Assembly: GCA_021784575.1 (NCBI GenBank)
Contig: JAJYHX010000008.1
Coordinates: 24,804 to 88,803 of the forward strand
Length of the DNA stretch: 64,000 bases
Direction of reading: 5' to 3'
Origin: Nitrospirota bacterium
GTDB taxonomy: Bacteria > Nitrospirota > JACRHJ01
The notes beneath the pieces were generated by a model that saw only the letters and a program-made list of their open reading frames with translations, searched no databases and was not told the DNA's origin. This document shows positions 2,611 through 48,208 of the stretch, piece after piece. How positions within the stretch are numbered: position 1 is the stretch's first letter; every line of letters begins with the position of its first letter. A program made the translations under genes and the position numbers.

Positions 2611-2644
2611 TGCTCCCCTCCCGGCTGTTTACTCAGTTTTTATC

Positions 2645-3247: not shown

Positions 3248-4956
3248 CTCATACCTCCCTTAATATCCTGCTTACATGCGGTTTTTTTCACAATGCCTGC
3301 TATGTCAAGTATAAGAACAACCCTTCCGTCCCCAAGAATCGTTGCTCCGGCTATGTTCTCGCCTTCTCCGAGATATTCGTCGAGCGCCTTAATCACTACT
3401 TCCTGCCTGCCCATCAGTCCATCAACCATCAGGGCTGCCAACTTATCGTCTCTCCCTACAACCACCGCGTAGGCGCGCTTGGATGTCACGGCAGTCTCGC
3501 GTCCTGGCTCGCCAGTCCACCCGGATTCCCCCGGATCATCTGATCCGAAAAGCCAGTCGAGCCTGACAAGCGGAAGAACCCTGTCCCTAAGAAAGATTAC
3601 CTCGTCCCCGCTGATGGTCTTTATGTCTTCAGGATTGAGTTTTACGCTCTCTACCACGGAAGAAAGCGGGAGTGCATAAAGCGAACGGCCCGATTTCACC
3701 ATTAGCGCGGAGATTATCGCCAGCGTAAGAGGCAGTTTTATAGTGAACGCTGTGCCCAAGCCGGGCCTGTTATTAACATCGATACTGCCGCCGAGTTTCG
3801 TCACGCCCTTCTTAACCACGTCCAGCCCCACGCCTCTGCCGGATACTTCCGTAACTTTCTTCGCTGTTGAAAATCCGGCCTCAAATATAAGTTCCGTAGC
3901 GTCCTGGTCGCTTAAACCGGATACAAACTCAACCGGGTAGACCTTGGCCGCCTTGGCCCTTACGGCGTTTATATCTATGCCAGCCCCGTCGTCAGCTACT
4001 GTTATGACTATGTGGTTTCCTTCCTGTGCGGCCGAGAGCGTTATCTCTCCTACGCTCGACTTTTTCTTCTGAAGCCTTTCATCCGGCCCTTCTATGCCGT
4101 GATCCACGGCGTTTCGTATGAGGTGTATGAGCGGCTCTCCAATCTCGTCGATAACCGTCTTGTCCAATTCAGTTTCCCCTCCCTGGAAAACAAGGTTTAT
4201 CTCCTTGCCCCTTTCACGGGAGAGATCCCTGACCATCCGCGGGAAGCGCTGAAATACCTGGCGTATCGGCAGCATCCGCACCTTCATTATGGCCTCTTGA
4301 AGCTGGGAGGTTGATTTAAATATTTCCGCCGTCACTTCCGAAAGATTATAAGCCACCGCTTTGTCCAGGTTAAGTTCGCTGAAAATCCTGCTTGTCATTG
4401 CCAGCCTGGTCCTATGGATTATCAGTTCGCCTGCCAGATTGAGCAGATGATCCAAGCGCCCGAAATCGACCTTGAGTATGTTGGATTTATCCGCTATATA
4501 TCTAAAGCTGTCGCTCCTGGATTTGGCTATTGGCGCCGGAGAGCCAACCTCGGCTGCCGAGGTTTCGCCAAGAGCATTTATCTGTTCGGTAAGGTCTATT
4601 TCCGTTTTAGGATTCTCTCTGAGCCGTTCGAGCGCTTCTCTCATGACAGCGACTGCGTCAAACAGCTTCTGGAGTTTTTCGTCGGTTAATCCGGAGCCAT
4701 AGCCATCTTCGAGCAGCTTTTTAAAAATTCCTTCTATATTGTGCACATACTGCTGAAGGGAATCAAAACCCATCATGCCGGAATTCCCTTTAAGGGTATG
4801 CAATGAACCCAACAGGTCTGATATAAGCTCCACGTCAAGACCGCCCTGGCCCAAATATTTCTCCATCTCCATGAGCGAGGAGTCGAGCTTGTCTATGTGC
4901 CCGATGGCGTCTTCAAAAAATTCATTTATAAGGCCGGAAGTATCTAAGTCTTCCAT
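3244..4956 (-). CDS. cheA: Chemotaxis histidine kinase CheA, without a P2 domain
   Basis: A 570-residue cytoplasmic kinase. It opens with an HPt domain whose phospho-accepting His53 lies in SLHTLKGNSGMMGF. A short acidic linker (about 115-150) leads straight to the dimerisation helices (near 160-210), then the HATPase domain (NAVDHGIEGPDER N-box, ADDGAGID G1 box, GRGVGLDVV G2 box) and a C-terminal CheW-like regulatory domain. No room is left for the P2 CheY/CheB-binding domain of enteric CheA. It follows two single-domain receivers, which are the obvious phosphoryl acceptors. Confidence 0.95.
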   Translation of the reverse strand: MEDLDTSGLINEFFEDAIGHIDKLDSSLMEMEKYLGQGGLDVELISDLLGSLHTLKGNSGMMGFDSLQQYVHNIEGIFKKLLEDGYGSGLTDEKLQKLFDAVAVMREALERLRENPKTEIDLTEQINALGETSAAEVGSPAPIAKSRSDSFRYIADKSNILKVDFGRLDHLLNLAGELIIHRTRLAMTSRIFSELNLDKAVAYNLSEVTAEIFKSTSQLQEAIMKVRMLPIRQVFQRFPRMVRDLSRERGKEINLVFQGGETELDKTVIDEIGEPLIHLIRNAVDHGIEGPDERLQKKKSSVGEITLSAAQEGNHIVITVADDGAGIDINAVRAKAAKVYPVEFVSGLSDQDATELIFEAGFSTAKKVTEVSGRGVGLDVVKKGVTKLGGSIDVNNRPGLGTAFTIKLPLTLAIISALMVKSGRSLYALPLSSVVESVKLNPEDIKTISGDEVIFLRDRVLPLVRLDWLFGSDDPGESGWTGEPGRETAVTSKRAYAVVVGRDDKLAALMVDGLMGRQEVVIKALDEYLGEGENIAGATILGDGRVVLILDIAGIVKKTACKQDIKGGMR

Positions 4957-4963
4957 TTCTCTC

Positions 4964-5356
4964 CTATACGGCTACTTTTTGTATTCCCGAGAATATTCTC
5001 TCTATCAGGCTATGCAGTTCCGCCGGCTGAAAAGGCTTTTTAACGTATCCTTTTGCGCCAAGAGACAGTCCGCGCAGGGTGTCCTCCTCCTTGCCTTCGG
5101 TGCTCACGATGATTATGGGCGGGGCCTTGAAGTCCGCTTCTTTGCTTAAGGCCTCCATGAACTGAAGACCGTTCATTACCGGCATGTTTATATCCAGAAG
5201 GATAAGCTCTATGGCTTCTTCCTGGGAAAGCTTATCCAGAGCCTCAATCCCGTTCATGGCCGAGATAAGCTGACAGTCCTTATAGCGCATAAATACCAGC
5301 TTGTACATCTGGTGCAAAAGGCTTGAGTCGTCCACTATCAGGATTTTCTTGAGCAT
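4964..5356 (-). CDS. Single-domain response regulator (CheY-like)
   Basis: A 130-residue stand-alone receiver domain. The acidic pair (ILIVDDSS), the phospho-acceptor Asp in LILLDINMPVMNG, the switch Ser/Thr in IIVSTEGKEED and the Lys in YVKKPFQP are all present. It lies 7 bp upstream of cheA on the same transcript and is the most likely CheY of this system. No output domain is present, so it should act by protein contact. Whether the target is a flagellar motor or a regulatory partner is not visible here. Confidence 0.9.
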   Translation of the reverse strand: MLKKILIVDDSSLLHQMYKLVFMRYKDCQLISAMNGIEALDKLSQEEAIELILLDINMPVMNGLQFMEALSKEADFKAPPIIIVSTEGKEEDTLRGLSLGAKGYVKKPFQPAELHSLIERIFSGIQKVAV

Positions 5357-5370
5357 TTTGTCCCCCCCCC

Positions 5371-5769
5371 CTATTCCACAGAAGCCGGACCCGGCACCGG
5401 AATCCCAAGACGGTTCACCATCATCAGCAGGTGGTCAATATCCACCGGTTTTTCATAATAGTGATATGCTCCCCGCTTGAACGCTTCCTCTTTTATTTCC
5501 GTAGAACCGTATGCGGTCATAATCATCACCGCCGTCACCGGGTTCAGCTCTTTCACGTATCTTAATAACTCCAGGCCTTCAATACCATACATGCCGCTCA
5601 TACGGATATCCGCTATTACCAGATCAAACGAATACCTGGTCAGAGCCTCTTCTGCGGCCTCTATTTTTGAACAGGTTATGACCTCGACCCCATCGGTCCT
5701 CAGGCAATATGACAAGCTCAGGAGAATGGTCGGCTCATCATCGACGATAAGAATCCTTTTCACCATCAT
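5371..5769 (-). CDS. Single-domain response regulator, NtrC-receiver type
   Basis: A 132-residue receiver with the DD pair (ILIVDDEPTILLSL), phospho-acceptor Asp in LVIADIRMSGMYG, Thr in VMIMTAYGS and Lys in YYEKPVD. It resembles NtrC-type receivers more than CheY but has no AAA+ or DNA-binding domain after it. It is the first gene of the chemosensory operon, starting at ATGATG with an AGGAG ribosome-binding site, directly behind a sigma-54 promoter match. It may be a phosphate sink or link between the upstream kinase and CheA; that role is inferred. Confidence 0.88.
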   Translation of the reverse strand: MMVKRILIVDDEPTILLSLSYCLRTDGVEVITCSKIEAAEEALTRYSFDLVIADIRMSGMYGIEGLELLRYVKELNPVTAVMIMTAYGSTEIKEEAFKRGAYHYYEKPVDIDHLLMMVNRLGIPVPGPASVE

Positions 5770-5807
5770 GCGCTCCTAAATAAATATGGATTGTTGCCAT
5801 GAGATAA

Positions 5808-5823
5808 AGCAATAAGAATGCCA
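5808..5823 (-). promoter_or_regulatory. Sigma-54 (-24/-12) promoter of the chemosensory operon
   Basis: Read on the minus strand the site is TGGCATTCTTATTGCT. It keeps the invariant GG at -24 and GC at -12 with the exact spacing of the TGGCACG-N4-TTGCW consensus. It ends about 39 bp upstream of the first start codon (5769). An NtrC-family activator is encoded just upstream. Confidence 0.75.
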
Positions 5824-5829
5824 TCAGAA

Positions 5830-5906
5830 ATAACACAATAATATCAAGGTGTTATCTGGAAATTTATTATAGGAATTTCAGGGTGTGCGAAAATCGTACA
5901 ATACGA
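5830..5906 (-). promoter_or_regulatory. Two inverted repeats upstream of the sigma-54 promoter, possible activator sites
   Basis: ATAACAC (5830-5836) and GTGTTAT (5849-5855) form a perfect 7-bp dyad with a 12-bp spacer. TCGTA-CAA-TACGA (5894-5906) is a perfect 5-bp dyad about 70 bp upstream of the -24 element, a usual distance for an enhancer site. The second dyad is followed on the minus strand by TTTTC and could instead be a weak terminator of the preceding regulator gene. Confidence 0.35.
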
Positions 5907-5919
5907 CTGTATGGTTTTA

Positions 5920-7275
5920 CTACAGGAGGTTGTGTTTTTTCAGCTTGTTTATCAATGTAGAGCGGCTTATACCCAGGAGTCTGGCGGCAAGGCTCTGGTT
6001 TCCATGGGAGAAACCTATTGTCTTTTTTATATGGTCTTTTTCCAATCTGTCGAGCGAACATGGGGCTGACATATAATTTCCCCTCTCCTCCCGCACCATC
6101 TGCTCACTTTTCCCGAGCAACTCATGCGGCAGATGTTCAGGAGTTATGGCTGGGCCAGGCGACAGTATAACGGCACGCTCAATTACGTTCCGCAGCTCTC
6201 TTATGTTGCCGGGCCATCCGTAGGCAAGCAGATAGCTTTCACCCTCTCTGGAAATTTCGGTTATATTCTTTTTGATTGCCGCGCTTTGCGAGAGAAAATA
6301 TCTCGCCAGATCAAGGACGTCATTCTCTCTTGTCCTGAGCGGCGGCATATGCACCGGCATCACGCATAACCTGTAATAGAGATCCTCCCTGAAGTTCTTG
6401 CGGTTTTCCGGGTCGGACAGGTCTTTGTTGGTTGCTGCCATTATCCGGACATCCACCTTTATGTCCCTCGTCCCGCCCACTCGCCTGAAGGTCTTGGTCT
6501 CTATTACCCTGAGAAGCTTCGGCTGAAGATTCATCGACAACTCGGCTATCTCGTCCAGGAATACCGTTCCACCGTCGGCCACTTCCAGAAGCCCCTTTTT
6601 CATTTCTTTCGCGTCGGTATACGCACCCCTTTCGTGTCCGAAGAGCTCCGACTCCAGGAGATGCTCTGACAGCGAGGCGCAATTGATGTCCAAAAAAGGT
6701 TTGTCCTTCCGAACGCTTAGGCTATGAATGCTCCGCGCCGCAAGCTCCTTGCCGGTGCCGGATTCACCGGTAATTATCACCGTAGTATCCGGATTTTCCG
6801 CGAGCATTTCTATTATCAGGAGCACCTTATGGATTTCCCTGGAGTTTCCGACAATGCCTGTATAGGAATTGTCTTGCCTCATTTTCAGTATCAGGTTTTC
6901 CTTCTTGAGTCCTTGGGTTTCCAACGCCCTTTCCACCGCTATCTCCAGGTCGTCGATGTCAACCGGTTTGGTCAGATAATCATAGGCCCCTTTCCGCATG
7001 GCCTGCACGGCATCCGGCAAATTGGCATAACCTGTGAGCATTATTACCATAATGTCTGGTTGCTCGGCCTTTATCATTTCAAGCGCATGAAGCCCGGTTC
7101 CGTCTGGAAGCCTGTTGTCCAGAATGACCAAATCTGGCCTGATCGCCCATGTCAGCTTAAGTCCCTCCGCTATGGTCGCGGCGGAGGATACGTAAAATCC
7201 TTTCCCCGCAAACAGGTATCCCAGGGACTTGCGTATACTCTCTTCATCGTCGATTATCAATACCGAATGTGGCAT
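5920..7275 (-). CDS. Sigma-54-dependent response regulator, NtrC family
   Basis: A 451-residue transcription activator. The receiver domain (1-120, phospho-acceptor Asp in LVILDNRLPDGTG) is followed by an AAA+ ATPase with Walker A GESGTGKE, Walker B GTVFLDEI and the sigma-54 contact loop, here GAYTDA instead of GAFTGA (a variant seen in many functional members). The C-terminal Fis-type helix-turn-helix is GNQSLAARLLGISRSTLINK. Its start abuts the stop codon of the upstream histidine kinase, so the two form a two-component pair. Exact sigma-54 sites lie upstream of both this operon and the chemosensory operon, making self-activation and control of cheA/cheW/mcp likely. Confidence 0.95.
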   Translation of the reverse strand: MPHSVLIIDDEESIRKSLGYLFAGKGFYVSSAATIAEGLKLTWAIRPDLVILDNRLPDGTGLHALEMIKAEQPDIMVIMLTGYANLPDAVQAMRKGAYDYLTKPVDIDDLEIAVERALETQGLKKENLILKMRQDNSYTGIVGNSREIHKVLLIIEMLAENPDTTVIITGESGTGKELAARSIHSLSVRKDKPFLDINCASLSEHLLESELFGHERGAYTDAKEMKKGLLEVADGGTVFLDEIAELSMNLQPKLLRVIETKTFRRVGGTRDIKVDVRIMAATNKDLSDPENRKNFREDLYYRLCVMPVHMPPLRTRENDVLDLARYFLSQSAAIKKNITEISREGESYLLAYGWPGNIRELRNVIERAVILSPGPAITPEHLPHELLGKSEQMVREERGNYMSAPCSLDRLEKDHIKKTIGFSHGNQSLAARLLGISRSTLINKLKKHNLL

Positions 7276-9021
7276 TTAAGTTCTCTCTGTCGTTACCTGA
7301 ATATAGGGTAAGTTTATATGGACACTCGTGCCTTGACCCGATACGCTATTGACCGCAATCGTACCGTCGTGGTCTTCAATTATTTTGCGGCAGATGGCGA
7401 GTCCGATGCCAGTTCCTTTTTCCTTGGTGGTAAAGAACAGGTCAAATACCTTCGGGAGGTCAGGCCCTGGTATGCCCACTCCCTGATCGGATATTGTTAT
7501 CTTTATTGCTCCGTCTGACCGCCTTGCCGAAATCGTTATATTTCCGCCTGCGTGCGAGGCGTCTATCGCGTTCACCAAGAGATTCAAGAATACCTGCTTT
7601 ATCTGGTTGAGGTCGAGCATCGCTATTTCCAGAGCAGAACATTCTTTTACTACGTTAAGTCCCTTTTCCGTAATCGCCATGAAATGAAATTCCAGGACAT
7701 TTTCTATAAGAGAACATATGTCGACAGGCTGCCTTTGAAGCTTCATTGTCCGGTTGTAAAGCAGCATATCCTCTACGAGCCGGTTAAGTCTGTTCGTCTC
7801 CGAGAGCATAGCTTGCACAAGCGGCCCTATTGGATTCTCATTGCTCGTTTCCCTTGCTATTATCTGGGCAACGGAGGTAATACCGAAAAGCGGGTTCCTT
7901 ATCTCATGCGCGACGCCGGCGGCGACCTTCCCGACCGCCGCAAACCGCTCCTTTTCGCGGAGATCGTCCTGGAGCTTTTTTATCTCGCTTAAGTCCCTGA
8001 ACACCACAATGAAACCTTCCGGATTTCCGTCCCTGGAAATAAGATGATTGTTGTTAAAACCTACCGGTACGGCTCCGTTGGGCGTAATGATTTCCACCTC
8101 CTCGCCTATTATTCTCGGTTTTATCTCCAGCATGCCGGCTGTCTCCGGATAAATGAGCGTTATGTCTTTCCCGATTATTGCCTCGCGGTCGCATCCCAAT
8201 ATCTCGGCCCCGGAGATGTTTATCATCTTTACCCTGCCCGTCAGATCAATAACGAGTAGCCCTGCAGCCATATTAAATATAATGCTGTCAAGCAGGTGCT
8301 CATTCCTCTTTATCCTATCCATGTTTATTATGTTGCTCATTAGACTTGCGGCAGAATTGGCAAACAGGTTTAATGAGTTCAAATTATCCTGGGTTATTGG
8401 TTTCTTGCTCACACGGTTATCGGCGCATATCAAGCCAAAATTCTTTCCCGTAGTATTGGTCTTGTATACCGGGCAATTACCGCATATGTCCATTCTTGCA
8501 AGCATGTTATCGCTCCCCCGGAGCATTCGACAACTATTATCTATAACCCAACAGGACAGATGAGGGCTGTTCCTTGCCGGACAATTCTCGTCGTTGCACC
8601 CAAAATGCTCCCAGCAGACGAGTTGGCGATTTTCCGGGTTGTATGTCTCTAACGGCGCGACAGCTACATCCACGTCGCCTCCTCCGACATGGCCCTTTAT
8701 TACGGCACATAGCGGCTTGGAAGTCGTAAAGGCCTCGTTCTTGTCAAACTTAATAGCCTCCAGCCCAGACACCTCCAACGGAGTCGATAGTACTTCGCCT
8801 ACGGTGCTATGACATGCAATAAGCCGGCGGGTGCCGTCTTTACTGTCTATAAGCCAAAGGCATACCTTATCGAAGCCTATGGCCTCGGCTACCGCCCAAA
8901 CTGATACATTAGCCGCCTCCTGCAAGTCGCTTGAAACCCTTACGCGGTTGGAAAACCAGTTAAGAATAAAAAGCTGGTTTAGTTTTTTCTCATATGACCC
9001 ATCTTTTGACTTTGGCTCCAA
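7276..9021 (-). CDS. Cytoplasmic GAF-PAS sensor histidine kinase with two-CW cysteine module
   Basis: A 581-residue kinase with no membrane segment. An N-terminal GAF-like domain (about 15-230) carries a cysteine-rich insert at residues 136-183 (CWEHFGC, CPAR, CW, C, CGNCPVY), the same layout as the C-terminus of the MCP downstream. A PAS domain (about 245-345), a HisKA domain with His372 in AAGVAHEIRNPL and an HATPase domain (NLLVNAIDAS, GVGIPGPDL, GTGIGLAI) follow. The start is a TTG with AGAGG six bases upstream, about 60 bp below a sigma-54 site. The insert suggests redox or metal sensing; that is inference. Confidence 0.92.
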   Translation of the reverse strand: MEPKSKDGSYEKKLNQLFILNWFSNRVRVSSDLQEAANVSVWAVAEAIGFDKVCLWLIDSKDGTRRLIACHSTVGEVLSTPLEVSGLEAIKFDKNEAFTTSKPLCAVIKGHVGGGDVDVAVAPLETYNPENRQLVCWEHFGCNDENCPARNSPHLSCWVIDNSCRMLRGSDNMLARMDICGNCPVYKTNTTGKNFGLICADNRVSKKPITQDNLNSLNLFANSAASLMSNIINMDRIKRNEHLLDSIIFNMAAGLLVIDLTGRVKMINISGAEILGCDREAIIGKDITLIYPETAGMLEIKPRIIGEEVEIITPNGAVPVGFNNNHLISRDGNPEGFIVVFRDLSEIKKLQDDLREKERFAAVGKVAAGVAHEIRNPLFGITSVAQIIARETSNENPIGPLVQAMLSETNRLNRLVEDMLLYNRTMKLQRQPVDICSLIENVLEFHFMAITEKGLNVVKECSALEIAMLDLNQIKQVFLNLLVNAIDASHAGGNITISARRSDGAIKITISDQGVGIPGPDLPKVFDLFFTTKEKGTGIGLAICRKIIEDHDGTIAVNSVSGQGTSVHINLPYIQVTTERT

Positions 9022-9091
9022 ATTCTACCTCTGATGAAAAGTTATAAGCGAAAGAAATAAATTATCAATCAACTTCAATCATAATTAGTGA

Positions 9092-9107
9092 GGCAATAAA
9101 TATGCCA
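9092..9107 (-). promoter_or_regulatory. Sigma-54 promoter of the histidine kinase/NtrC operon
   Basis: On the minus strand the site reads TGGCATATTTATTGCC. It has the GG and GC dinucleotides and the N4 spacing of the -24/-12 consensus. It lies about 70 bp upstream of the TTG start of the kinase and would make the pair autoregulated. Confidence 0.7.
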
Positions 9108-9146
9108 GTTTTATGCAATTCGAGGACAAATAAGCGATGGAGTGGC

Positions 9147-9559
9147 GTGGCCCCCAATTTGTACTACCAGTTGTAAAGTTAGAGTTAAGGGCTCGATTGC
9201 CTCTGGCTCTGGCAGTCTGTACCCCAGCGAGCTGTGCGGCCTGACGGCGTTGTACTGCCTGCGCCAGCCCTCGGTCAGTACCTGCGCCTCAAGCGGCGTG
9301 TAAAATATCCGCGGTTAAGCAGCTCGTCCCTCATCCTGCCATTGAACCAAGGGCGCGTTAGCAAGGAACTGGTCGCGCCACTTGTAATACTGAGTCCGGC
9401 TTATCTTCAAATGTCGGCAACGCTTCGGCCCTTCAGGCCCTCAAGGACGATTGCCGACTTGGCCATTGCGTCAAACTTGCGTCGCTGCATGGCTGGCGGT
9501 CTCCTCTTCTCCAGCCACATATTACTCTCTTAGCTTGACCATTGTCTATAACGGGGTCA
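9147..9559 (-). mobile_element. Decayed IS3-family insertion sequence remnant
   Basis: On the minus strand an ATG at 9518-9520 opens a short OrfA-like piece (KRRPPAMQRRKFDAMAKSAI, then VLEGLKGRSVAD). Stops and frameshifts follow, then the OrfA segment SRTQYYKWRDQFLANA and OrfB pieces RPWFNGRMRDELLN and TPLEAQVLTEGWRRQYNAV, RPHSSLGYR. Those OrfB pieces are the C-terminal signature of IS3-type DDE transposases. Most of OrfB, including the first two catalytic acidic residues, is deleted, so the element is dead. The boundaries are approximate, placed where GGCCCCC-like (left) and GGGGTCA (right) end sequences occur. Confidence 0.75.
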
Positions 9560-9682
9560 GTATGAATGATCTCTATCATTTGCTCCTCAACCAATAACAC
9601 TATCCGATAAACATTGCCTTTGCCGATGTTTCAAATGGCTGGATTTTTAAAATAAAATGTTACGATTTTGCCACGTTAGACT

Positions 9683-9714
9683 AAAAAAGGGTTACGGCTA
9701 ATACCGTAACCCCT
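9683..9714 (-). terminator. Intrinsic terminator of tRNA-Arg
   Basis: A perfect 9-bp stem, GGGTTACGG (9689-9697) with CCGTAACCC (9704-9712), is followed on the minus strand by six T residues. It starts about 10 bp after the tRNA 3' end. Confidence 0.9.
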
Positions 9715-9722
9715 TGATTTTA

Positions 9723-9799
9723 TGGTGCCCCCAGCATGGCTCGAACATGCGACACCAGGTTTAGGAAACCTGTGCTCTATCCTACTGAGCTATGGGGGC
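9723..9799 (-). tRNA. tRNA-Arg (anticodon CCU)
   Basis: Read on the minus strand the gene folds as a complete cloverleaf. The acceptor stem pairs GCCCCCA with TGGGGGC. The D arm contains AGTAGGAT between GCTC and GAGC. The anticodon stem CAGGT/ACCTG encloses loop TTCCTAA with anticodon CCT. The T arm contains TTCGAGC, and an encoded ACCA tail follows. It decodes the rare arginine codon AGG. A strong terminator follows. The neighbouring IS remnant may reflect insertion beside a tRNA. Confidence 0.95.
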
Positions 9800-10352
9800 T
9801 TGAGGCAATCTTTACCAATTTCCTATACAGTGTATCATTTAAATCGGAACCGTCCTACGCGCTGTTTTTATCGGTCATATAGTAACCTTTTTTTATATAA
9901 AGTCAATACCTTTCCATACAACCGAAAGATTTCCCGCCCCATAAATCCGCTGCCGGTTCCTTGCCGCCAGTCATTTCCGCCAAGGCGAATGTCATTCAGA
10001 TTAAAACGGGAATCCAGGTTTTTTCTCTGCCCCATTGCACGAGCCACGGCTACATACATGCTGAAAATGAAAACCGATGAAAGACATGAGTGTGTCCCTA
10101 TTTTGCGGCATATTCAGGGGCGGTTTATGTGGCCGGAGGGAAGGGTTCCGGGGCTTACGGGTAGGGCGCGGACGCGCCTGCTTTCATTATAAAAAGGGCT
10201 TCTTTAGCTTATTAATCAATGAATTACGACTTAACGGGAATTATTGCGGTTTATGTGAATGCGTTTCATAACTATCGGAATATAAAGGACTTTTCCCGGA
10301 CGATTTTGTCGATTTTACAATGTTCCACGTGGAAAACCATCGCCGCAATCGT
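9800..10352. other. Gene-free stretch between tRNA-Arg and the ketosynthase
   Basis: No credible coding sequence is visible on either strand. The part next to the tRNA is AT-rich and should hold its promoter. Near 10005 is a fragment of a dispersed repeat (GGGAATCCAGG). Near 10160 a short GGCGCG/CGCGCC hairpin occurs. The right edge contains the parS-like palindrome annotated separately. Confidence 0.6.
10321..10336. promoter_or_regulatory. parS-like palindrome (candidate ParB/Noc-type binding site)
   Basis: TGTTCCACGTGGAAAA matches the bacterial parS core GTTCCACGTGGAAC except at its last position. It lies 16 bp beyond the stop codon of the ketosynthase gene. It is the only copy seen in the window, and no parA or parB gene is nearby, so a role in chromosome segregation is only suggested. 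Confidence 0.4.
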
Positions 10353-11576
10353 CTATACGCGCCCCAGCACAAGCGCCGCGTTCATGCCGCCGAAGCCAAA
10401 GGCATTGGAAAGAACATAACTTACGCGCGCCTTGCGGCCCATATTCGGGATGTAGTCCAGGTCGCAATCCGGGTCCGGGTCTGTAAGGTTCAGCGTCGGC
10501 GGCAGATATTCGTTATGTATTGCAAGCGCGCAGATTGCCGCCTCTATCGCGCCTGTCGCGCCCAACGGATGGGCGTGGAAGGGCTTCGTGCCGCTGACGG
10601 GCGTCTTGTATGCGCGCTCTCCGAAGACCTTCTTTATAGCGATGGTCTCGTTTCTGTCGTTCATCTTTGTAGAGCTTCCGTGGGCGTTTATATAGCCAAT
10701 CTTATCCGGGCGGATGCCCGCCTGCCGGAGCGCAATTATCACCGCCCTTGCCGCGCATTCGCCGTCCTCGCGGGAGGACGTCATGTGATATGCGTCGTTT
10801 GTCAGGCCGTAGCCAAGGACCTCGGCGTATATCCTTGCGCCGCGCTCCCTGGCATGTTCCATTTCTTCGAGTATCAGCGCCGCGCTCCCCTCGCCCATGA
10901 CAAAGCCGTCCCGCCCGGAATCGAATGGCCGGCAGCTTCCCTCCGGGTTGTCATTACGCGCTGTCATCGCCTTAATCAGCGTGAACGAGCCGAACGTGAG
11001 CGGACTGAGCGGAGCCTCCGCACCGCCTGCAATCAGCGCGTCCGCCCGGCCCGCGCGTATCATCTCGAACGCCTCGCCCACGGCCATTGTGCCCGACGAA
11101 CAGGAGTTGGAATTGGTGATGTTCGGGCCTGTCAGCCCAAGCTCGATTGCGATATGGCAGGACGACGACGCGCCGAAAACGAGCGTTGCGAGGTGTGGAC
11201 TGACGGACCTCAGGCCGTTTTCCCTGAAGATGTCGTGCTGGTTCTCCGCGAAAGCAAGCCCGCCGAGGGCAGAGCCCATGACGATACCCGTTTCCGGATG
11301 TCTGGAGATGTCGAGGCCCGAGTCTTCCGTCGCCATCCTTGCCGCCGCCACGGCGAACGCGGCGAAACGGTCGATGCGTTTCAGATTCTTTCCGCTGACA
11401 TAATCCGATGCGTTGAAATCCCGCACCTCTCCGGCGAACTTCGTCCTGAAGCCCGATGCGTCGAAGGACGTTATTTCGCTTATCCCGGAGCGGTTTGCCA
11501 GGACACCCGCCCAAAGCCCGGAGACGCCGAAGCCTATGGACGTTACCGCGCCGATGCCCGTTATTGCGACACGCAT
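10353..11576 (-). CDS. FabF-like beta-ketoacyl synthase, probably polyketide-type
   Basis: A 407-residue condensing enzyme of the FabF/KS fold, expected to do decarboxylative Claisen condensation on an acyl carrier protein. The catalytic Cys lies in NSNSCSSGTMAVGEAF, the two His in INAHGSSTKMND and in GTKPFHAHPLGATGA (with the conserved Lys), and the C-terminal SNAFGFGGMNAAL loop is intact. I chose the ATG at 11574-11576 because it begins the family's MRVAITGIGAVTS; in-frame codons upstream (NRWIPAMEG) come from a dispersed repeat. It is the last gene of the mdh/methyltransferase/U32/SRPBCC operon. No carrier protein or acyltransferase is nearby. Fatty acid synthesis is the alternative, but fab neighbours are absent. 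Confidence 0.85.
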   Translation of the reverse strand: MRVAITGIGAVTSIGFGVSGLWAGVLANRSGISEITSFDASGFRTKFAGEVRDFNASDYVSGKNLKRIDRFAAFAVAAARMATEDSGLDISRHPETGIVMGSALGGLAFAENQHDIFRENGLRSVSPHLATLVFGASSSCHIAIELGLTGPNITNSNSCSSGTMAVGEAFEMIRAGRADALIAGGAEAPLSPLTFGSFTLIKAMTARNDNPEGSCRPFDSGRDGFVMGEGSAALILEEMEHARERGARIYAEVLGYGLTNDAYHMTSSREDGECAARAVIIALRQAGIRPDKIGYINAHGSSTKMNDRNETIAIKKVFGERAYKTPVSGTKPFHAHPLGATGAIEAAICALAIHNEYLPPTLNLTDPDPDCDLDYIPNMGRKARVSYVLSNAFGFGGMNAALVLGRV

Positions 11577-11659
11577 TTTATCAGACAATCCGGCTCCTTC
11601 CATAGCGGGAATCCAGCGATTTTCATAACGTCCGCCAAGCTGTAATTCCAAGCCCCGGC

Positions 11660-12115
11660 CTACCGGCCCTCGGCTATTTCCTTTATCCTTTTAAGCGTCT
11701 TCGAGGCGATGTTATGGACGAAGAAACGCCCGACGATATATTTCGCCGCAAACTCGCCCAGGACAGACCCCCAGTTCGGATCGAACTCGTGGGTTATCCT
11801 GACGTGCGTTGTCCTGCCATGCTTCGTGGCGTTCTCCCTGATAATCCATTCCACATACATCCCGGTGGTGGGGCCGCCGATATGCCTGAAGATTATCCTG
11901 CCGGTCTCCGGCAGGGATTTCTGGATGGAAATCCAGCTTACCGGTATGCCGTCCCGGCTCGCCGCCATCTCCACGACCCGGTGGTCTCCTTCGTCCTTGA
12001 GGAGGGTTACGCGGCGGTAATGCGGGAGCTTCGCAGGCCAGCTGAGGACATCACAGGCCAGGCGGTAAACTTCTTCCGCCGGGGCGTTTATCGTTATGGT
12101 GTCCTCGGTGAACAT
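11660..12115 (-). CDS. SRPBCC family protein, polyketide cyclase/dehydrase-like
   Basis: A 151-residue START/Bet v1-fold protein. The opening TEDTITINAPAEEVYRLACDVLSWPAKLPHYRRVTLL is typical of the polyketide cyclase/aromatase branch of SRPBCC proteins (helix-grip fold with a hydrophobic pocket). The rest keeps the expected strand pattern and a C-terminal helix (NIASKTLKRIKEIAEG). It sits between a ketosynthase and a U32 Fe-S protein with 18 bp or less to the upstream gene, so folding or aromatising a ketoacyl chain is the natural guess. Other SRPBCC roles, such as lipid binding or CoQ10-like chaperone, are not excluded. Confidence 0.75.
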   Translation of the reverse strand: MFTEDTITINAPAEEVYRLACDVLSWPAKLPHYRRVTLLKDEGDHRVVEMAASRDGIPVSWISIQKSLPETGRIIFRHIGGPTTGMYVEWIIRENATKHGRTTHVRITHEFDPNWGSVLGEFAAKYIVGRFFVHNIASKTLKRIKEIAEGR

Positions 12116-12133
12116 GGAGGAATCTTTTGCCTC

Positions 12134-13378
12134 CTACGAACGCGAAACACGAACACGTCTTCTCATCCACGTCCTTCCGGAATCCATATCCCGGAAGACT
12201 TCTTCGTATTCCTTAAGCATCCTGCTCCTGAAGCCTTCGTCAACGGCTACCGCCCTGCGCCTGTAGGATTCGCAGTGCCCGCACTCAAGGCAGTCCGAGG
12301 CTCGGCAGTCTTTATCTCTGAAGCCGGCCAGGAAACCGTCCAGCTTCCCGTTGTCGATATATACCGGCTCGCCCTCCTGCGCTCCCAGAAGCCCGCGATT
12401 AACGGCCAGCCTTCTGATCCTCATAAGACCGGCAAGTCTTACGCTCCCCGGCCTTAGAAAATATTTCCAGAAATGCGCGGCATCCTTCAGCCCGCCGGGC
12501 CGTTTCTCCTTATAGCCGTAAGGCTGTATCAGGTCCAGGAGATTGCCGTCGAAGCCGCCTTCCCCGTACGCCCTTATTCGCCTTAGCATGGCAGCCGCCG
12601 GGGCGCCGCGTTCGAGTATCTTGAAATTATTATAACCGAGAATTTGATATTGTCCCAGGTCTTCGGGACGGATAAACTCCGAGCGCAGGTAGTTCACCGG
12701 TTCCACAAGCTTCATGTAAGAGCAGCGCAGGGCGCACCAGTCTATCAGAAAACCGCCGCTTCCGTGCCCTTTTTGAGAGGCGTGGGAGAGGTTCACCATG
12801 TGCTGGCCGGAGAGCGGGCAGAACATAAGGCAGTTGGAGTTCGCTATAAGCTGAAGCTCGATTTTAACCGCCTTTCTTATCGCGGCGAGCAGGCTGAAGT
12901 TCCTGTTTACGGATATGGACTCAAGCGTTATGCAGTCCGCGCCCATATCCTCCCAGAACTTCGCCTTGGAAACGCAGTCCACGCGCGCATAGACCCCTAC
13001 CCGCACCTTCAGGGCCGGGTTATGTTTCTTTATTATCGGCAGGATGGAAGGCAGGGCAATCGTTACGCTCCCGGCGCCGACGGATTCGACAAAATCAATT
13101 GCCGCGCGCAGGGCCTTCTGGCCCTTCCGTGTATATTCCGTGTTGTCCATGCAGGCGGGGTTCAGGAGGTAATTGAAACCAATCCCCTTTTTCCCTGCCG
13201 CTTCGATATATTCCTTGAGCTTCCGGGCGGAAAGCGGAGAGAGCATGAAAGAGGCCCTGCCGCCGCCGACGGGGTCGGATGGGAGTTTGCCGAAAAGCTC
13301 CGTCACGGCCGACCCTGAAAGCCCGTCCAGGAAGCCGTCCTCGAAGCACGCGGCGACGGAAAGTTTTATATTCGGCAT
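12134..13378 (-). CDS. U32-family Fe-S protein with two cysteine clusters
   Basis: A 414-residue protein with the TIM-barrel-like core of peptidase U32 proteins (VRVGVYARVDCVSKAKFWEDMGAD, IELQLIANSNCL). Cys183, 187, 215 and 219 (NCLMFC ... WCALRC) form one likely [4Fe-4S] site, as in the UbiU/UbiV/RlhA/TrhP group. A second set, Cys358, 363, 366 and 369 (C-x4-C-x2-C-x2-C), lies near the C-terminus. Family members catalyse oxygen-independent hydroxylations (ubiquinone, tRNA, rRNA) rather than proteolysis. Placed between a methyltransferase and a cyclase, it may hydroxylate the pathway's product anaerobically; this is inference. No close homologue is recognised with certainty. Confidence 0.75.
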   Translation of the reverse strand: MPNIKLSVAACFEDGFLDGLSGSAVTELFGKLPSDPVGGGRASFMLSPLSARKLKEYIEAAGKKGIGFNYLLNPACMDNTEYTRKGQKALRAAIDFVESVGAGSVTIALPSILPIIKKHNPALKVRVGVYARVDCVSKAKFWEDMGADCITLESISVNRNFSLLAAIRKAVKIELQLIANSNCLMFCPLSGQHMVNLSHASQKGHGSGGFLIDWCALRCSYMKLVEPVNYLRSEFIRPEDLGQYQILGYNNFKILERGAPAAAMLRRIRAYGEGGFDGNLLDLIQPYGYKEKRPGGLKDAAHFWKYFLRPGSVRLAGLMRIRRLAVNRGLLGAQEGEPVYIDNGKLDGFLAGFRDKDCRASDCLECGHCESYRRRAVAVDEGFRSRMLKEYEEVFRDMDSGRTWMRRRVRVSRS

Positions 13379-13427
13379 GGAAGTTAAAAATACCCCAAGA
13401 AAAGCCGGACAGTTTCGCTTTCTTTCG

Positions 13428-13459
13428 GTTACTTTTCTTTATCGCGAAAGAAAAGTAAC
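13428..13459. repeat. Perfect 13-bp inverted repeat overlapping the methyltransferase stop codon
   Basis: GTTACTTTTCTTT (13428-13440) and AAAGAAAAGTAAC (13447-13459) are separated by ATCGCG. The left arm contains the stop codon of the methyltransferase, so the hairpin spans the end of that gene and the gap before the U32 gene. It could act as a processing or attenuation hairpin inside the operon. No T-run follows it. Confidence 0.7.
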
Positions 13460-14310
13460 GACATCCTCCAGAAACGCCGCCGCCTCATCCTGAAATCCTC
13501 GATTCCCGCATCCTCAGCGAGTCTTCTCATCTCGGATGGCGTAAAGGCTTTAAGGACGGAGAGAGGCCCGTCGCAGCGGGTATACCTGTTGGCCGTGAAA
13601 AGCCTGGTCAATAGCCATATCAGCGCCCAGGGGATGATGTTCCTGCGCAAGTCGCCAATAATTATCGCGAACTTCGAGACGCGGGCCATCTCGGCCATGA
13701 ATTTCACGGCGTCGCCGCGGCTCAGGTGGTGCAGCACAAGGGAACAATGGACAATGTCGAAGCTTCCATCCGGGAAAGGGAGCCTCAGGCCATCGGCCAG
13801 AACATATGATATTTCAGAATTTCCTTGAGGCCGGTCTACCGGTTGAAGCCGGGCTGCCGGTTCGCGGTTCCAGGCACGCCCCGCCGAAAGCGCGGCAAGG
13901 TTTAAGTCCGCAGCCACGGAAAACACCGCATAGCCTTTATCTTCCGCATACCCGGCCATGGCGGCGGTAATGTCCGCAGAGCCTGCGGCGACGTCGAGTA
14001 TCTTAAGGCGCCGGGCCTCTTTTTCGTCACTCTCCCCTCGCCCGCCGGGCGAGGGGACGGGGATGGCGGCTTCCATGCGCCCCAGCGCAAGCGCAAGCTC
14101 CTTCAGCGCCGAGCCGACTCCCCCCAGCCACAGGTTCACGCGCCTGATGTCCATCAGGCTTCCCTGAAGCGCCCGGCTGTCCTGTTCGTCCGGCGGCAGG
14201 TCGAGAAGCTCACGCTTCAAACACCTGCGGGGAACGAGGGCCGGGAACCAGCCCCGAGGTTTATTGTCCGGAGCCGAATCCTGGCCGGGGCGCCCGCGCG
14301 GAACGGACAT
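13429..14310 (-). CDS. Class I SAM-dependent methyltransferase, PKS-associated type
   Basis: A 293-residue enzyme. An N-terminal helical segment (RELLDLPPDEQDSRALQGSL, then DIRRVNLWLGG) resembles methyltransferases found beside type III PKS genes. SAM motif I is ILDVAAGSADI, motif II is near YVLADGLRLPFPDGSFD, and the post-motif VHCSLVLHHL follows. Residues about 84-95 (PVPSPGGRGESD) are encoded by an in-frame palindromic repeat placed between the N-terminal segment and motif I. The start codon overlaps the mdh stop (ATGA). The likely role is O- or C-methylation of the product of the downstream ketosynthase set. Confidence 0.8.
   Translation of the reverse strand: MSVPRGRPGQDSAPDNKPRGWFPALVPRRCLKRELLDLPPDEQDSRALQGSLMDIRRVNLWLGGVGSALKELALALGRMEAAIPVPSPGGRGESDEKEARRLKILDVAAGSADITAAMAGYAEDKGYAVFSVAADLNLAALSAGRAWNREPAARLQPVDRPQGNSEISYVLADGLRLPFPDGSFDIVHCSLVLHHLSRGDAVKFMAEMARVSKFAIIIGDLRRNIIPWALIWLLTRLFTANRYTRCDGPLSVLKAFTPSEMRRLAEDAGIEDFRMRRRRFWRMSLLFFRDKEK
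14030..14064. repeat. Palindromic repeat (family B) inside the methyltransferase gene
   Basis: CCCCTCGCCCGCCGGGCGAGGGG is the palindromic core of the same C/G-rich repeat family that occurs near 18972, 34124 and 39947. It keeps the reading frame and encodes a Pro/Gly-rich stretch. Confidence 0.6.
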
Positions 14311-15242
14311 CAGAAGCCCGTGGCTTCCTGTCCCTTCTTTACCGCCTCGACAGACTTCTCGAACGCCTCCCGCTCCCCGCCCGCAAGCGTGACTTGCAGG
14401 ATCTCCTCGACGCCGTCCTGGCCAAGGATAACGGGCACGCCGGTAAAGACGCCGGAGACCTTGTATTCGCCTTCAAGGAGCGCCGAGCATGGCAGTATGC
14501 GTTTCTGGTCGAGCAGGATGGACTGGGCCATGACCGCGGCGGCCGCGGCAGGCGCATAGAAGGCGCTGCCGGTCTTGAGCATGGAAACAATCTCCGCGCC
14601 GCCGTTACGGGTCCTCTCCACGACGGAGTCTATCGAGTCCTTGTCCATGAGTTCCGTAATGGGTATGCCTGCAACAGTGGTGTAGCGCGGAAGCGGGAGC
14701 ATCTGGTCTCCGTGGCCGCCCAGGACGAATGCCTGGATGCTGTCGGCGGAGATGCCGAGTTCGATGGATATGAACGTGCGGAACCTCGCCGCATCGAGTA
14801 CTCCGCCCATGCCTATGACGCGCTCCTTTGAAAAACCGCTGACCTTCCACGCGACATACGCCATAACGTCCATCGGGTTCGTCACGACTATTATCTTCGC
14901 GTCGGGAGAGAGCGGCGCAGCGGCCTTTGTAACCTCGGAGACAATCTTCACGTTTGCGGAGAGCAGGTCGTCCCGGCTCATCCCGGGCTTCCTGGCCATC
15001 CCGGCGGTGATGATTATGAGGTCGGAACCCGCGGTCTCCTCGTAGGTGTTGGTCCCGACTATGTCCCCGCTTATGCCCATTACCGGCGCGGACTGCAAGA
15101 GGTCGAGCCCCTTTCCCTGGGGCACGCCCTCCACCGCGTCCACGAGCGCCACATCGCCCAGACGCATCTCCAGTATCCTCTGGGCCACGGTGGCGCCGAC
15201 ATTGCCCGCGCCGATTACCGTTATTTTATTCCTTTTCTGCAA
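14310..15242 (-). CDS. mdh: Malate dehydrogenase (NAD-dependent, LDH-like)
   Basis: A 310-residue cytoplasmic oxidoreductase interconverting malate and oxaloacetate. The Rossmann motif is [15 protein letters not shown]. Substrate-binding Arg residues occur in [13 protein letters not shown], which marks malate rather than lactate specificity. The catalytic His is in [12 protein letters not shown]. The length is standard for the LDH-like MDH family. It lies 17 bp after the CorC-like gene and overlaps the methyltransferase start, so it shares a transcript with the polyketide-like genes. That linkage may be incidental. Confidence 0.95.
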
Positions 15243-15259
15243 AGCCGCCTCCTTTTTTT

Positions 15260-16537
15260 CTACGGTTTCGTGATTTTTACTCTCCCTATTTTCCTCTCGT
15301 CCATCTCGAGCACTTCAAACTTAAGCTCCTTGTATTTCAATATCTCGCCGGGACGCGGCATCCTCCCGAAAAGCCCGAATACGAACCCGCCGATTGTGTT
15401 GAAATCTCCCGACTGGATATTTATGCCCGTCTCCCGGCTTACCTCGTCGAGGTCAGCCGAGCCGGAGACTACGAAATTCTTTTCATCTACAATCTGCACC
15501 TCGCTCTCCTCCCTGTCGAACTCGTCCTGTATGGAGCCGACAATCTCCTCGAGGAGGTCTTCGAGCGTTATAAGCCCGGCGGTTCCGCCGTACTCGTCTA
15601 TGACGATGACCATCTGTATCTTCTGGTCCTGCATCTCCGTAAGGAGCTCGCGGACGCGCTTTGTCTCCGGGATGAAATATGCCGGCCTGACCATCCTCTT
15701 TATTGTATCATTTTCGTCGAGCTCGCCCCTCGACATGGCGATGACGAGGTCCTTGACATATAGCACGCCCTGGATCTCGTCCACGGACTCCAGGACGACG
15801 GGATAGCGGGAGTGCCCGTGCTCCGCCACGAGCGAAAGCGCCTCGGAGACCCTTGCCCCGTTCTCGATGGAGATTATCTCCGTCCTGGGGCGCATGGCTT
15901 CCACGGCAAGCGTATCCCCGAACTCGAATACCTTGTGCAGCATCGCCTTCTCCTGCACGTCGAGCGCGCCCTCTTCCTGGCCTATGGATATTATGGCCTT
16001 TATCTCGTCCTCGGTGACGAACGGGGTCTTCTCCGTGTCTCCGCCGAAGAACCTTATGACCGCGCCCGTAACGCCGGTGAAGACCCGGACTATCGGGTGC
16101 ATCATGGATATGATGAACTCCATCGGCCTTGCGACAATAAGCGCAACCTTCGAGGCGTTGGACGCGGCGAACGTCTTCGGCGCAATCTCTCCGAACATGA
16201 CGATGAAGACGGTCATGACCGCCGAGGCGGCAAGCGTGACGAACCGGTATTTGGGGAAAAGCGAGATGGCCAGCTCGGTGCCGAGAGACGAGGCCAGAAT
16301 TATGAAGAAGTTCTCCGTCAGGAGTATCGTTCCGAAGAGCCTGCCGTGCTCCTCCCTTATCCTCTGGACGGACTTGGCGTTTTCGTCTCCCTTTTCGACC
16401 ATGCTCCTTATCCTCAGGCGGCTTACGGATATGAGCGCGGCCTCGGAACTGGAGAAAAACGCCACGAAAAGCACGCATAAAAGGATAATTATTATGCTGA
16501 CGGAGGGGTCCGGAGCGGGCATTGCGAACGATTCCAT
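15260..16537 (-). CDS. CNNM/CorC-type membrane protein (DUF21, CBS pair, CorC_HlyC)
   Basis: A 425-residue inner-membrane protein. DUF21 transmembrane helices ([21 protein letters not shown], with further helices at about 60-150) lead to an acidic linker ([16 protein letters not shown]), two CBS domains ([10 protein letters not shown]..., [23 protein letters not shown]) and a CorC_HlyC domain at the C-terminus. Family members are implicated in Mg2+/Co2+ efflux or homeostasis and are often misnamed hemolysins. I chose the ATG at 16535-16537 (MESFAMPAP), which has GAGAGG upstream; the longer frame reads back through the leader hairpin. It heads the operon that continues into mdh and the ketosynthase. 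Confidence 0.88.
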
Positions 16538-16554
16538 TTGTCCTCTCGGGTATC

Positions 16555-16616
16555 CAAAAAACATGGGGGCGCAAGATATTACGCCCCCATCCCCTTGCAC
16601 TGTATTTAGGATTATA
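16555..16616 (-). promoter_or_regulatory. Leader of the CorC/mdh/ketosynthase operon: -10 box plus terminator-like hairpin
   Basis: On the minus strand TATAAT (16616-16611) lies about 75 bp upstream of the CorC-like start; the -35 is weak. The short leader then contains a perfect 9-bp hairpin, ATGGGGGCG (16563-16571) with CGCCCCCAT (16582-16590), followed by TTTTTT. That is an intrinsic terminator located in front of the first gene, suggesting attenuation. Confidence 0.55.
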
Positions 16617-16707
16617 TCATAACGATATAATTTTTTTAATAAAAAAAACCCTCGCCACACGGATTCCGGGCCTTTTTCATTTACATTAAAATTTTTATTT
16701 AAAAATA

Positions 16708-16736
16708 TTGACAAAATATTAAATTTACTGTATTAA
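16708..16736 (+). promoter_or_regulatory. Sigma-70 promoter of the H-NOX-like gene
   Basis: TTGACA (16708-16713) and TATTAA (16731-16736) are separated by exactly 17 bp. The predicted start site is about 30 bp upstream of the ATG, which has GAGAGGGG six bases before it. Confidence 0.85.
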
Positions 16737-16774
16737 CAAAGATAAAGCCATCCACAAAACGAGAGGGGTTGCCT

Positions 16775-17356
16775 ATGAAAGAGCTGCTTGGAGGGATGCT
16801 GAACGGGATGAAGGATGTTCTGGCTGCAAGGGCGGGCGAGGGATCTATGGAAAAAATTTTGCTGTATTCAGGCATAGCCGAAATTTCATCGGCGAGTTCA
16901 TCCGAAACTGCGCCCAAGGCGATTCTCTGCATGCTGGAAAACCTCTGCAGGACGCTGAACATTCCACTGGAAGAGACTGCGGAGGTCTACGGCGAACGCT
17001 GGTTCAAACATTACATACCAAAGATAACGCCATATCTCGGAACGGACATAAACGACTCGCGGTCGTTTCTCCTCAAGTTAAACGAGATACATTCTTCCAT
17101 GTCCGCTCCCGACGGCGGCAGCCCGTTTTTCTGTTACGACTGGAAGGACAGGGACACGCTGATTATGAGCTTCAGCGGCCTCGAAGAATGGGAGAGCCTG
17201 CCGGCTTATTTGTTCAAGGGGATGATTAGCGGCGTGGCGAAATTCTACGGCGAAGACGTGAGGCTCTTTACCGGCCCGTCAAACACGTTCATCATAATCT
17301 TCCCTGAATCCGAGATCAGAAGAAGGAAAATCCGACGAGCAGGAAGCTCGAATTGA
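16775..17356 (+). CDS. H-NOX (heme NO-binding)-like protein lacking the YxSxR motif
   Basis: A 193-residue soluble protein, one of only two plus-strand genes. It aligns by pattern with H-NOX domains: LCMLENLCRTLNIPLEETAE, YGERWFKHYIPKI, then FLLKLNEIHSSM with His106 at the place of the proximal heme ligand, and the C-terminal YLFKGMISGVAKFYGEDV helix. The heme-propionate motif YxSxR, expected near 131-135, is replaced by MSFSGLEEW. Heme binding is therefore uncertain. H-NOX proteins usually signal NO or redox state to kinases or cyclases; no such partner is adjacent. The ATG at 16775 is preferred over a TTG two codons earlier because of ribosome-binding-site spacing. Confidence 0.7.
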   Translation: MKELLGGMLNGMKDVLAARAGEGSMEKILLYSGIAEISSASSSETAPKAILCMLENLCRTLNIPLEETAEVYGERWFKHYIPKITPYLGTDINDSRSFLLKLNEIHSSMSAPDGGSPFFCYDWKDRDTLIMSFSGLEEWESLPAYLFKGMISGVAKFYGEDVRLFTGPSNTFIIIFPESEIRRRKIRRAGSSN

Positions 17357-17900
17357 TGCTCCGGTTCGGGTCTTTTATGTGGGCGTTGGAGATGTGCCGG
17401 TAGCGGTACTGGATGTTTACGGCGTGTTTTTCGTCTATGAAATACTGCACGCCGAAACCGGTCTGGATTATGAAATTGAAATCCGACCCCTGGACGTTAT
17501 GGCCGATTGGCTCGTAGATGGCCCCAAAGCCGAAGGTGGAATAGGGAGACCACCGGCTGTGAAGCGCGGTGAAGTTGTATTTAAAGCCCGCAAACGAAAG
17601 CCCCGCCTCCACCTTGCCGTTCGGATGCGTTATAACGCCGACAACAGGCTCCGCCTGATACTGGACGAGGCCCCGGAAAAAAGACGCGCCAAGCTCCTTT
17701 TTTGTCAGGAGAATGGAAATAGACGGCATGAAGACCGCGTGCTCTATGCAGGGCTGAACGGAGTGATGATCCATCGCCCATCCATACCCGGTGAGAAAGC
17801 CAATCTCATACGGGCTGTTTTCGATGATGTTCGCGGAATCCAAATCCGCAGCGAAGGCGGGAGAGGAAAAAAACAGGAATATTGTCAACATGACTGTCAT
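17316..17900 (-). CDS. PagL-like lipid A 3-O-deacylase (outer-membrane beta-barrel)
   Basis: About 194 residues, beginning with a signal peptide (MTVMLTIFLFFSSPAFA-ADL). The mature part is a run of short amphipathic strands ending in Phe, as outer-membrane barrels do. The catalytic His-x-Ser-Asn motif of PagL/acyloxyacyl hydrolases is present near the C-terminus (YRYRHISNAHI). The start codon lies inside a palindromic repeat; the open frame continues upstream through it as RRWIPAFAG, so the true start is either the ATG at 17898-17900 or the one at 17889-17891. The 3' end overlaps the convergent H-NOX-like gene by 41 bp. Removal of an R-3-hydroxyacyl chain from lipid A is the expected role. 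Confidence 0.75.
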   Translation of the reverse strand: MTVMLTIFLFFSSPAFAADLDSANIIENSPYEIGFLTGYGWAMDHHSVQPCIEHAVFMPSISILLTKKELGASFFRGLVQYQAEPVVGVITHPNGKVEAGLSFAGFKYNFTALHSRWSPYSTFGFGAIYEPIGHNVQGSDFNFIIQTGFGVQYFIDEKHAVNIQYRYRHISNAHIKDPNRSINSSFLLVGFSFF

Positions 17901-48004: not shown

Positions 48005-48041
48005 TTAATATGCCCCCTTTCGGTTAAACGACCAGGAATGC

Positions 48042-48150
48042 GGGCGCAATAAATTGCGCCCCCGCAAAAACCTTCACCCAATGACAATCTCATAACTCCC
48101 CCTGCTTCGCTTCCCCCTCTTATTTTAAGAGGGGGACTGAGGGGAAGTTA
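48042..48150. repeat. Family A and family D repeats between acsA and fhs
   Basis: GGGCGCAATAAATTGCGCCC (48042-48061) is identical to the palindrome inside rmlD. It is followed by a family D inverted pair, CTTCCCCCTCTTATTTTAAG and AGGGGGACTGAGGGG. The structures may act as RNA-processing hairpins that separate fhs from the acs messages. Confidence 0.8.
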
Positions 48151-48208
48151 CTACGGTCTTCGTAGCGCCGTAAAGAAACGGGACGGCCTTTTCGACCGCC
48201 CCATATAT

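Follow-up and report, generated by a model that had tools for sequence, protein, structure and literature searches.

The closest described systems to the locus considered here are small phenolic-lipid operons. The hidABC operon of cyanobacteria, described as a system for hierridins and alkylresorcinols, consists of genes for a methyltransferase (MT), an oxidoreductase and a type III polyketide synthase (PKS), and 58 planctomycete operons of such content have been reported, among which the PKSs tested make alkylresorcinols (PMC10896814, PMC8086630, both available in part). In Mycobacterium, the combination of a type III PKS, a methyltransferase and a hydroxylase yields benzoquinones that serve as electron carriers when oxygen is low, and such carriers have been suggested in Streptomyces (PMC9927152, also available in part). 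The locus compared with them lies in a stretch of 64,000 nucleotides (the window; contig JAJYHX010000008.1, positions 24,804 to 88,803) that falls within contig 10 of a Nitrospirota genome 2.1 Mb in size and 97% complete. It is a cassette of four genes behind a malate dehydrogenase gene (mdh), coding for an S-adenosylmethionine (SAM)-dependent MT, a U32-family protein, an SRPBCC protein and a FabF-type ketosynthase (KS). Sequence comparison gives a probability of about one half that this cassette is a variant of the phenolic-lipid (hid/srs/polyketide-quinone-like) operon, in which U32 replaces the flavin adenine dinucleotide (FAD) oxidoreductase and KS plus SRPBCC replace the type III PKS, and which would make an alkyl-phenol or quinone hydroxylated without O2 and methylated. 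The cassette shares with the hidABC/srs operons an MT whose family occurs in type III PKS/FAD loci, the form of one small operon and the order methyltransferase, oxidising enzyme, ring builder; it differs from them in having U32 and KS with SRPBCC, and neither FAD oxidoreductase nor type III PKS.

The exchange of the FAD enzyme for U32 is the central observation. The MT family has 9 matches in 395 Nitrospirota genomes and 24 in 246 Planctomycetota genomes. For comparison, 26 of these loci (23 planctomycete, 3 Nitrospirota) were read with wide flanks, after removal of the three loci of the window's genus, one planctomycete locus (L011, below) and three Nitrospirota loci without a PKS or FAD neighbour (in G161, G224 and G328), whose MT-like proteins served as tree outgroup; matches shorter than 70 residues and below 60 bits were dropped. 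Eighteen loci combine a type III PKS with FAD (in one, L124, on opposite strands), three a FabF-type KS with FAD (L110, L116, L117), one has FAD only, and four have neither (two of them, L109 and L122, near contig ends). An FAD-oxidoreductase-like neighbour is thus present in 22 of the 26 (in L101 cut by the contig end) and U32 in none; neither U32 nor the cassette SRPBCC family was detected at E 1e-3 in the 29 MT-locus stretches fetched, the planctomycete KS-MT-FAD loci included. Pfam FAD_binding_3 was matched by five of the six FAD-like proteins checked, and not in the L110 stretch. The order MT-oxidoreductase-PKS occurs in 8 FAD loci of the 26, and the window keeps it with U32 in the place of the oxidoreductase. 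The planctomycete locus L011 reads U32-MT-type III PKS. Five FAD references found no match at E 1e-3 in L011, the 64-kb window or the loci of two sister species (L009, L041), and three type III PKS references gave no tblastn match in the window at the same threshold. Every combination of type III PKS or KS with FAD or U32, four in all, therefore exists with one MT family.

The window MT falls inside this family (100/100 against the outgroup), where it groups with the MT of L123, a type III PKS-FAD locus (96/90), within a weakly supported clade of 11 rows (91/71), to which the MTs of the three KS-MT-FAD loci belong as well. A PKS-type methyltransferase had been recognised in an earlier, sequence-only reading of the same DNA. 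The Pfam matches of the window MT are Methyltransf_11/25 and Ubie_methyltran (41.6 bits), and its best NCBIfam match is PRK06202 (105.9 bits, below the cut-off of 243). The Ubie_methyltran match favours an alternative in which the MT is UbiE-like, the SRPBCC protein binds lipid and the U32 is UbiU-like, all three tailoring menaquinone or some other quinone of the host, with the KS as only an extra FabF. UbiU and UbiV do act on a quinone (PMC6747719, available in part), and a distant U32 (35%) adjoins MqnE in another Nitrospirota genome (L019/L040, G011:C102; TIGR03700 over cut-off). Such tailoring of a host quinone is nevertheless very improbable: the MT clusters with those of type III PKS/FAD loci, an SRPBCC-KS fusion ties the SRPBCC protein to the KS, and the scan of the flanking genes showed no quinone gene. 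A further neighbour of this distant U32 is presumably MqnA-like, as read by eye, with no NCBIfam match at 1e-20.

The ring-building side of the phenolic-lipid reading is carried by the SRPBCC protein. It matches Polyketide_cyc (46.5 bits) and Polyketide_cyc2 (39.8 bits), and its nearest solved relatives in sequence and fold are the aromatase/cyclases ZhuI, TcmN, WhiE (WhiE-ORFVI) and BexL, so that its earlier description as polyketide-cyclase-like is sustained. One relative of the KS is a natural SRPBCC-KS fusion, P0204, a single protein of 576 residues with both domains; because they are fused there, the two are likely to act together. In contrast to type II PKS aromatase/cyclases, the cassette protein has no adjoining chain-length factor or acyl carrier protein (ACP). 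Searched in 385 Nitrospirota genomes, the SRPBCC family matched three, all of the window's genus, and none outside it.

The KS contains the ketoacyl-synt N and C domains (Pfam scan), and the intact Cys-His-His seen from the sequence alone was confirmed by its motifs (C184 in NSCSSG, H324 in NAHGSST, H361 in HAHPLGA). With FabF it shares full-length homology and an intact Cys-His-His and Lys set; the motifs differ, being NSNSCSSG and KPFHAHPLGA here and TACATG/TACTSG and KSMTGHLLGA in FabF. The KS trees place the window KS and 19 relatives in one clade of 20 rows (supports 100/100 and 100/99), apart from which E. coli FabF and the genome's own FabF group together (100/97). The latter (L023) is encoded in the fab operon, where neighbouring genes carry ACP, short-chain reductase and acyltransferase domains, and the window KS is located outside this operon. 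The separate KS clade and the SRPBCC-KS fusion weaken the view that the KS is nothing more than a housekeeping FabF.

The U32 protein is borderline against PF01136 (21.8 bits on the protein, cut-off 22.4; 23.7 bits on the genome, over the cut-off), and the profile of its relatives matches the solved U32 protein MK0906 (E 1.6e-12). Both four-Cys sets that had been picked out from the sequence alone are invariant, together with C76, in 39 of 39 aligned U32 sequences (residues in the table). UbiU and UbiV stand in for flavin monooxygenases in O2-independent ubiquinone synthesis (PMC6747719, available in part), and the U32 protein here likewise occupies the position held by a flavin enzyme in related operons, a likeness drawn from published descriptions. 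Membership of the U32 family and an invariant four-Cys core set are common to UbiU-UbiV, TrhP, RlhA and the window protein. The latter differs from UbiU-UbiV in being a single gene rather than a pair, and from these proteins in its extra C-terminal four-Cys set and in that its substrate would be a polyketide.

The cassette is conserved. A search for its neighbourhood, which the sequence-only reading had proposed together with a KS tree, found the five genes together, with their order unchanged, in two further species of the genus, at identities to the window of 88% (U32), 91% (SRPBCC), 89% (KS), 71% (MT) and 96% (MDH, the mdh product) in L009 and of 83, 83, 88, 69 and 95%, respectively, in L010/L041. 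In a protein collection, 43 KS proteins (including that of the window) stand at about 69% identity or more and the next ones at 62% or less. Ten of the 43 match a listed U32 in the exact size of the longest contig, where 0.27 are expected, and six match a listed SRPBCC, where 0.17 are expected (expectations from jittered lengths). Half of the ten involve a U32 of at least 78%, that is, the genus or its vicinity; the other five pair a KS of 71-75% with a U32 of 62-65%. These indirect matches suggest that the cassette is present in more distant lineages. Within the genome, two of the three U32-domain genes have a KS no more than about 6 kb away, for which a rough estimate based on six KS matches in four places gives a chance of ~0.002; the second of these U32 genes, in a type II PKS cluster (L021), speaks for the phenolic-lipid reading. 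A plasmid search gave no match and a viral contig search one 25% fragment, and neither supplied neighbourhoods.

The proposed pathway would begin with the KS extending a host acyl-ACP by malonyl units. As the cassette has no ACP, acyltransferase or chain-length factor, the KS would draw on FabD and ACP from the fatty-acid operon; this absence had been remarked on before, and the run indeed holds a single KS and no ACP. The type II PKS set of KS alpha, chain-length factor and ACP is not in the run, and occurs elsewhere in the genome. In a second step the SRPBCC protein would act on the poly-beta-keto chain beside the KS, folding and aromatising it. Thirdly, U32 may hydroxylate the ring by means of a predicted [4Fe-4S] cluster, for which prephenate could supply the oxygen, since such chemistry is suggested by the prephenate-dependent U32 proteins TrhP and RlhA and by the O2-independent UbiU/V. 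Finally, the MT would methylate the ring or a hydroxyl. The earlier scheme of building, folding, hydroxylating and methylating a ketide stands in part: the SRPBCC kinship, the SRPBCC-KS fusion and the FAD-U32 exchange favour it, and the many U32 relatives without cassette neighbours do not.

A narrower version, an O2-independent polyketide-quinone pathway in which a single-chain U32 hydroxylates the ring made by KS and aromatase and the product serves as a respiratory electron carrier where oxygen is scarce, is doubtful. To our knowledge, no U32 hydroxylase has a substrate other than ubiquinone or RNA, and no KS/aromatase route leads to the hid/srs class; none of either was found in the literature searched, which did not cover preprints. 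If true, this pathway would supply both. The replacement of flavin enzyme by U32 would repeat, in secondary metabolism, the exchange between UbiI/H/F and UbiU/V in ubiquinone synthesis, and would offer a small single-chain system for studying O2-independent U32 hydroxylation. The combination of this MT family with U32 could also be used as a search rule for unseen aromatic metabolites of anoxic settings.

A number of observations weigh against this interpretation. The core Cys spacing, CX3CX27CX3C, is unlike CX6CX15CX3/4C or the UbiU/UbiV variants in the available part of the published account (PMC6747719). The U32 subfamily extends well beyond the cassette, with 1225 proteins at E 1e-3 against 63 relatives of the SRPBCC protein, and its members in Geobacter, Geomonas and Holophagales show 60-65% identity. 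Beside U32, none of three stretches of one Nitrospirota genus (L033-L035) and none of eight further planctomycete stretches (L055-L062) has a cassette-type gene; one of the eight, L061, carries at a contig end the U32 nearest to that of L011 (69% identical). In these eight, tblastn recovered U32 throughout, including four where the open reading frame (ORF) caller had overlooked it. Genome G544 has a lone U32 and, separately, a KS-MT-FAD cassette. The presence of U32 is thus no proof of a polyketide substrate, because the subfamily is widespread and often lacks cassette genes. The U32 side of the exchange amounts to one planctomycete locus and one Nitrospirota genus, and between the MTs of L011 and the window the identity is only 25%. 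Two of the five genomes of the genus, G003 and G004, are without KS, MT, SRPBCC and a close U32, these being incomplete (88% and 87%). A KS relative (71%) in the sister genus G005 has no adjoining MT, U32 or SRPBCC. In the SRPBCC protein, the position of TcmN R69, an active-site Arg important in aromatase/cyclases (an R69A structure is on record), is Gln in 32 and Leu in 8 of 40 sequences, a further difference from the type II PKS enzymes. The KS exceeds the FabF equivalog cut-off (TIGR03150, 520.5 bits against 493.75; 675 bits for the genome's own FabF), and although the trees do not set it firmly inside housekeeping FabF, a joint clade of the KS family and FabF is not rejected by the approximately unbiased (AU) test (p-AU 0.179). 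The likeness to hid/srs is drawn from gene content, and what the FAD enzyme does in the planctomycete operons is itself unproven (PMC10896814, available in part).

Several of these points agree with the view of U32 as an independent protein that hydroxylates RNA or cofactors in general, its place between MT and SRPBCC being accidental and limited to few lineages. Its relatives are far commoner than those of SRPBCC, often have no adjoining cassette gene and are found beside other pathways: between the genes of the chorismate-using TrpE and TrpG (L060, 1-3262; 47%), directly after a TIGR04053 radical SAM/SPASM gene (L055, 6376-9111; 50%; 479 bits, cut-off 395) and next to MqnE in the locus mentioned above. 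An accidental association is unlikely all the same, in view of the gene order kept in three species, the U32-MT-type III PKS arrangement of L011, the type II PKS cluster elsewhere in this genome that has a U32 of its own and, indirectly, the longest-contig size matches of KS and U32 in further lineages. The radical SAM gene of L055 also matches the heme b synthase AhbD, below cut-off.

The FabF score of the KS is also compatible with an unusual membrane lipid, in which the KS would make a specialised fatty-acyl or ladderane-like chain, SRPBCC would be a lipid-handling partner, and U32 and MT would modify the lipid. The KS relative of G005 (L067, G005:C10, 7295-10137) overlaps a B12-radical SAM gene that approaches the TIGR04072 'lipid biosynthesis' family (339 bits, cut-off 360), and a similar gene (329 bits) belongs to the C2 cluster of the genome from which the window comes. 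The cassette and the flanking genes scanned include no B12-radical SAM gene, the SRPBCC relatives are aromatase/cyclases and the MT family is located in type III PKS/FAD loci, which makes a membrane lipid decidedly unlikely.

Flavin hydroxylases need O2, so a phenolic-lipid or polyketide-quinone operon with a flavin hydroxylase should depend on oxygen, although quinones of this kind are put to use in low oxygen, and the FAD enzyme of the sister cassettes is probably oxygen-using. The window also carries, at 46295-52435, Wood-Ljungdahl pathway genes for formate-tetrahydrofolate ligase, CO dehydrogenase and the acetyl-CoA synthase beta subunit; CO dehydrogenase/acetyl-CoA synthase are oxygen-sensitive enzymes. 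Among 29 chosen genomes, the heme-copper oxidase family PF00115 was matched in 26, in 25 of them over cut-off; the genome of the window reaches only 31 bits, below it, and the FAD-type genomes G221, G359 and G408 gave no match. The U32-type genomes G001, G002 and G395 exceed the cut-off, and the genes of the sister species are full-length, which also counts against the phenolic-lipid reading. The rule of U32 in anaerobes and FAD in aerobes is unsupported, since the oxidase search does not separate the two types, and a strictly anaerobic setting for the cassette, which the sequence-only reading had called anaerobic, is not supported, because sister species that have the cassette carry oxidase genes. 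An anaerobic or low-oxygen role of the cassette is plausible.

The genes are transcribed in the order mdh-MT-U32-SRPBCC-KS (ORF list of the window), and all four cassette ORFs lie where the tight run behind mdh had been placed. The mdh gene shares one base with the start of the MT gene (gap -1), and the following gaps are 50 bp (MT-U32), 18 bp (U32-SRPBCC) and 8 bp (SRPBCC-KS, counted from the first KS TTG). The first gene is probably a promoter carrier rather than a pathway gene. A later KS start is more likely than the first TTG, at the TTG/ATG codons of residues 22-26 behind GGAAGGAG, near 11576-11588.

Table. Features of the cassette and its surroundings in the window.
Feature	Position	Strand	Basis
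SAM-dependent methyltransferase (MT)	13429..14310	-	Methyltransf_11 48.4 bits; MT tree
U32-family protein, predicted [Fe-S] O2-independent hydroxylase	12134..13378	-	
U32 core Cys set C183-x3-C187-x27-C215-x3-C219, predicted Fe-S site	12722..12832	-	coordinates from residue numbers
U32 C-terminal Cys set C358-x4-C363-x2-C366-x2-C369, predicted second Fe-S site	12272..12307	-	coordinates from residue numbers
SRPBCC protein, aromatase/cyclase-like	11660..12115	-	
FabF-type ketosynthase (KS), Cys-His-His intact	10353..11651	-	TIGR03150, motifs, KS trees
KS active-site Cys codon C184, TGT	11100..11102	-	read in sequence and motif position
mdh, malate dehydrogenase; first gene of run	14310..15242	-	TIGR01763 429 bits, cut-off 352
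tRNA-Arg gene, after KS	9723-9799		

Antisense to the KS gene runs an open frame of 441 residues (window 10320-11645, plus strand), probably a mechanical result of codon usage. Elsewhere in the genome, the C2 cluster (L021, G000:C2:197000-216500, 823-17390) contains the second U32 (39% to that of the window) with a KS pair, an ACP and an SRPBCC protein, besides a PF04199 cyclase, FMN reductase, PanE, aldehyde ferredoxin oxidoreductase, two FAD enzymes, PadR and the B12-radical SAM protein noted above (TIGR04072, cut-off 360). This cluster, which is kept in G001 (L036), gives the impression of a more extensive type II PKS or ladderane-like pathway independent of oxygen. A third KS pair (L022, G000:C9, 10297-17777), whose KS match contains one in-frame TGA, is accompanied by a flavin amine-oxidase-like enzyme, a 4HBT thioesterase and two B12-radical SAM proteins. 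Among distant U32 proteins, one (30%; L039, G157:C44, 1297-8617) adjoins a protein of 2000 residues that by eye resembles a non-ribosomal peptide synthetase, and another (34%), in metagenome-assembled genomes of Bacilli/Tenericutes (L012/L013), lies in the middle of a small run with genes that by eye are kinase-like and aminotransferase-like, alike in both.

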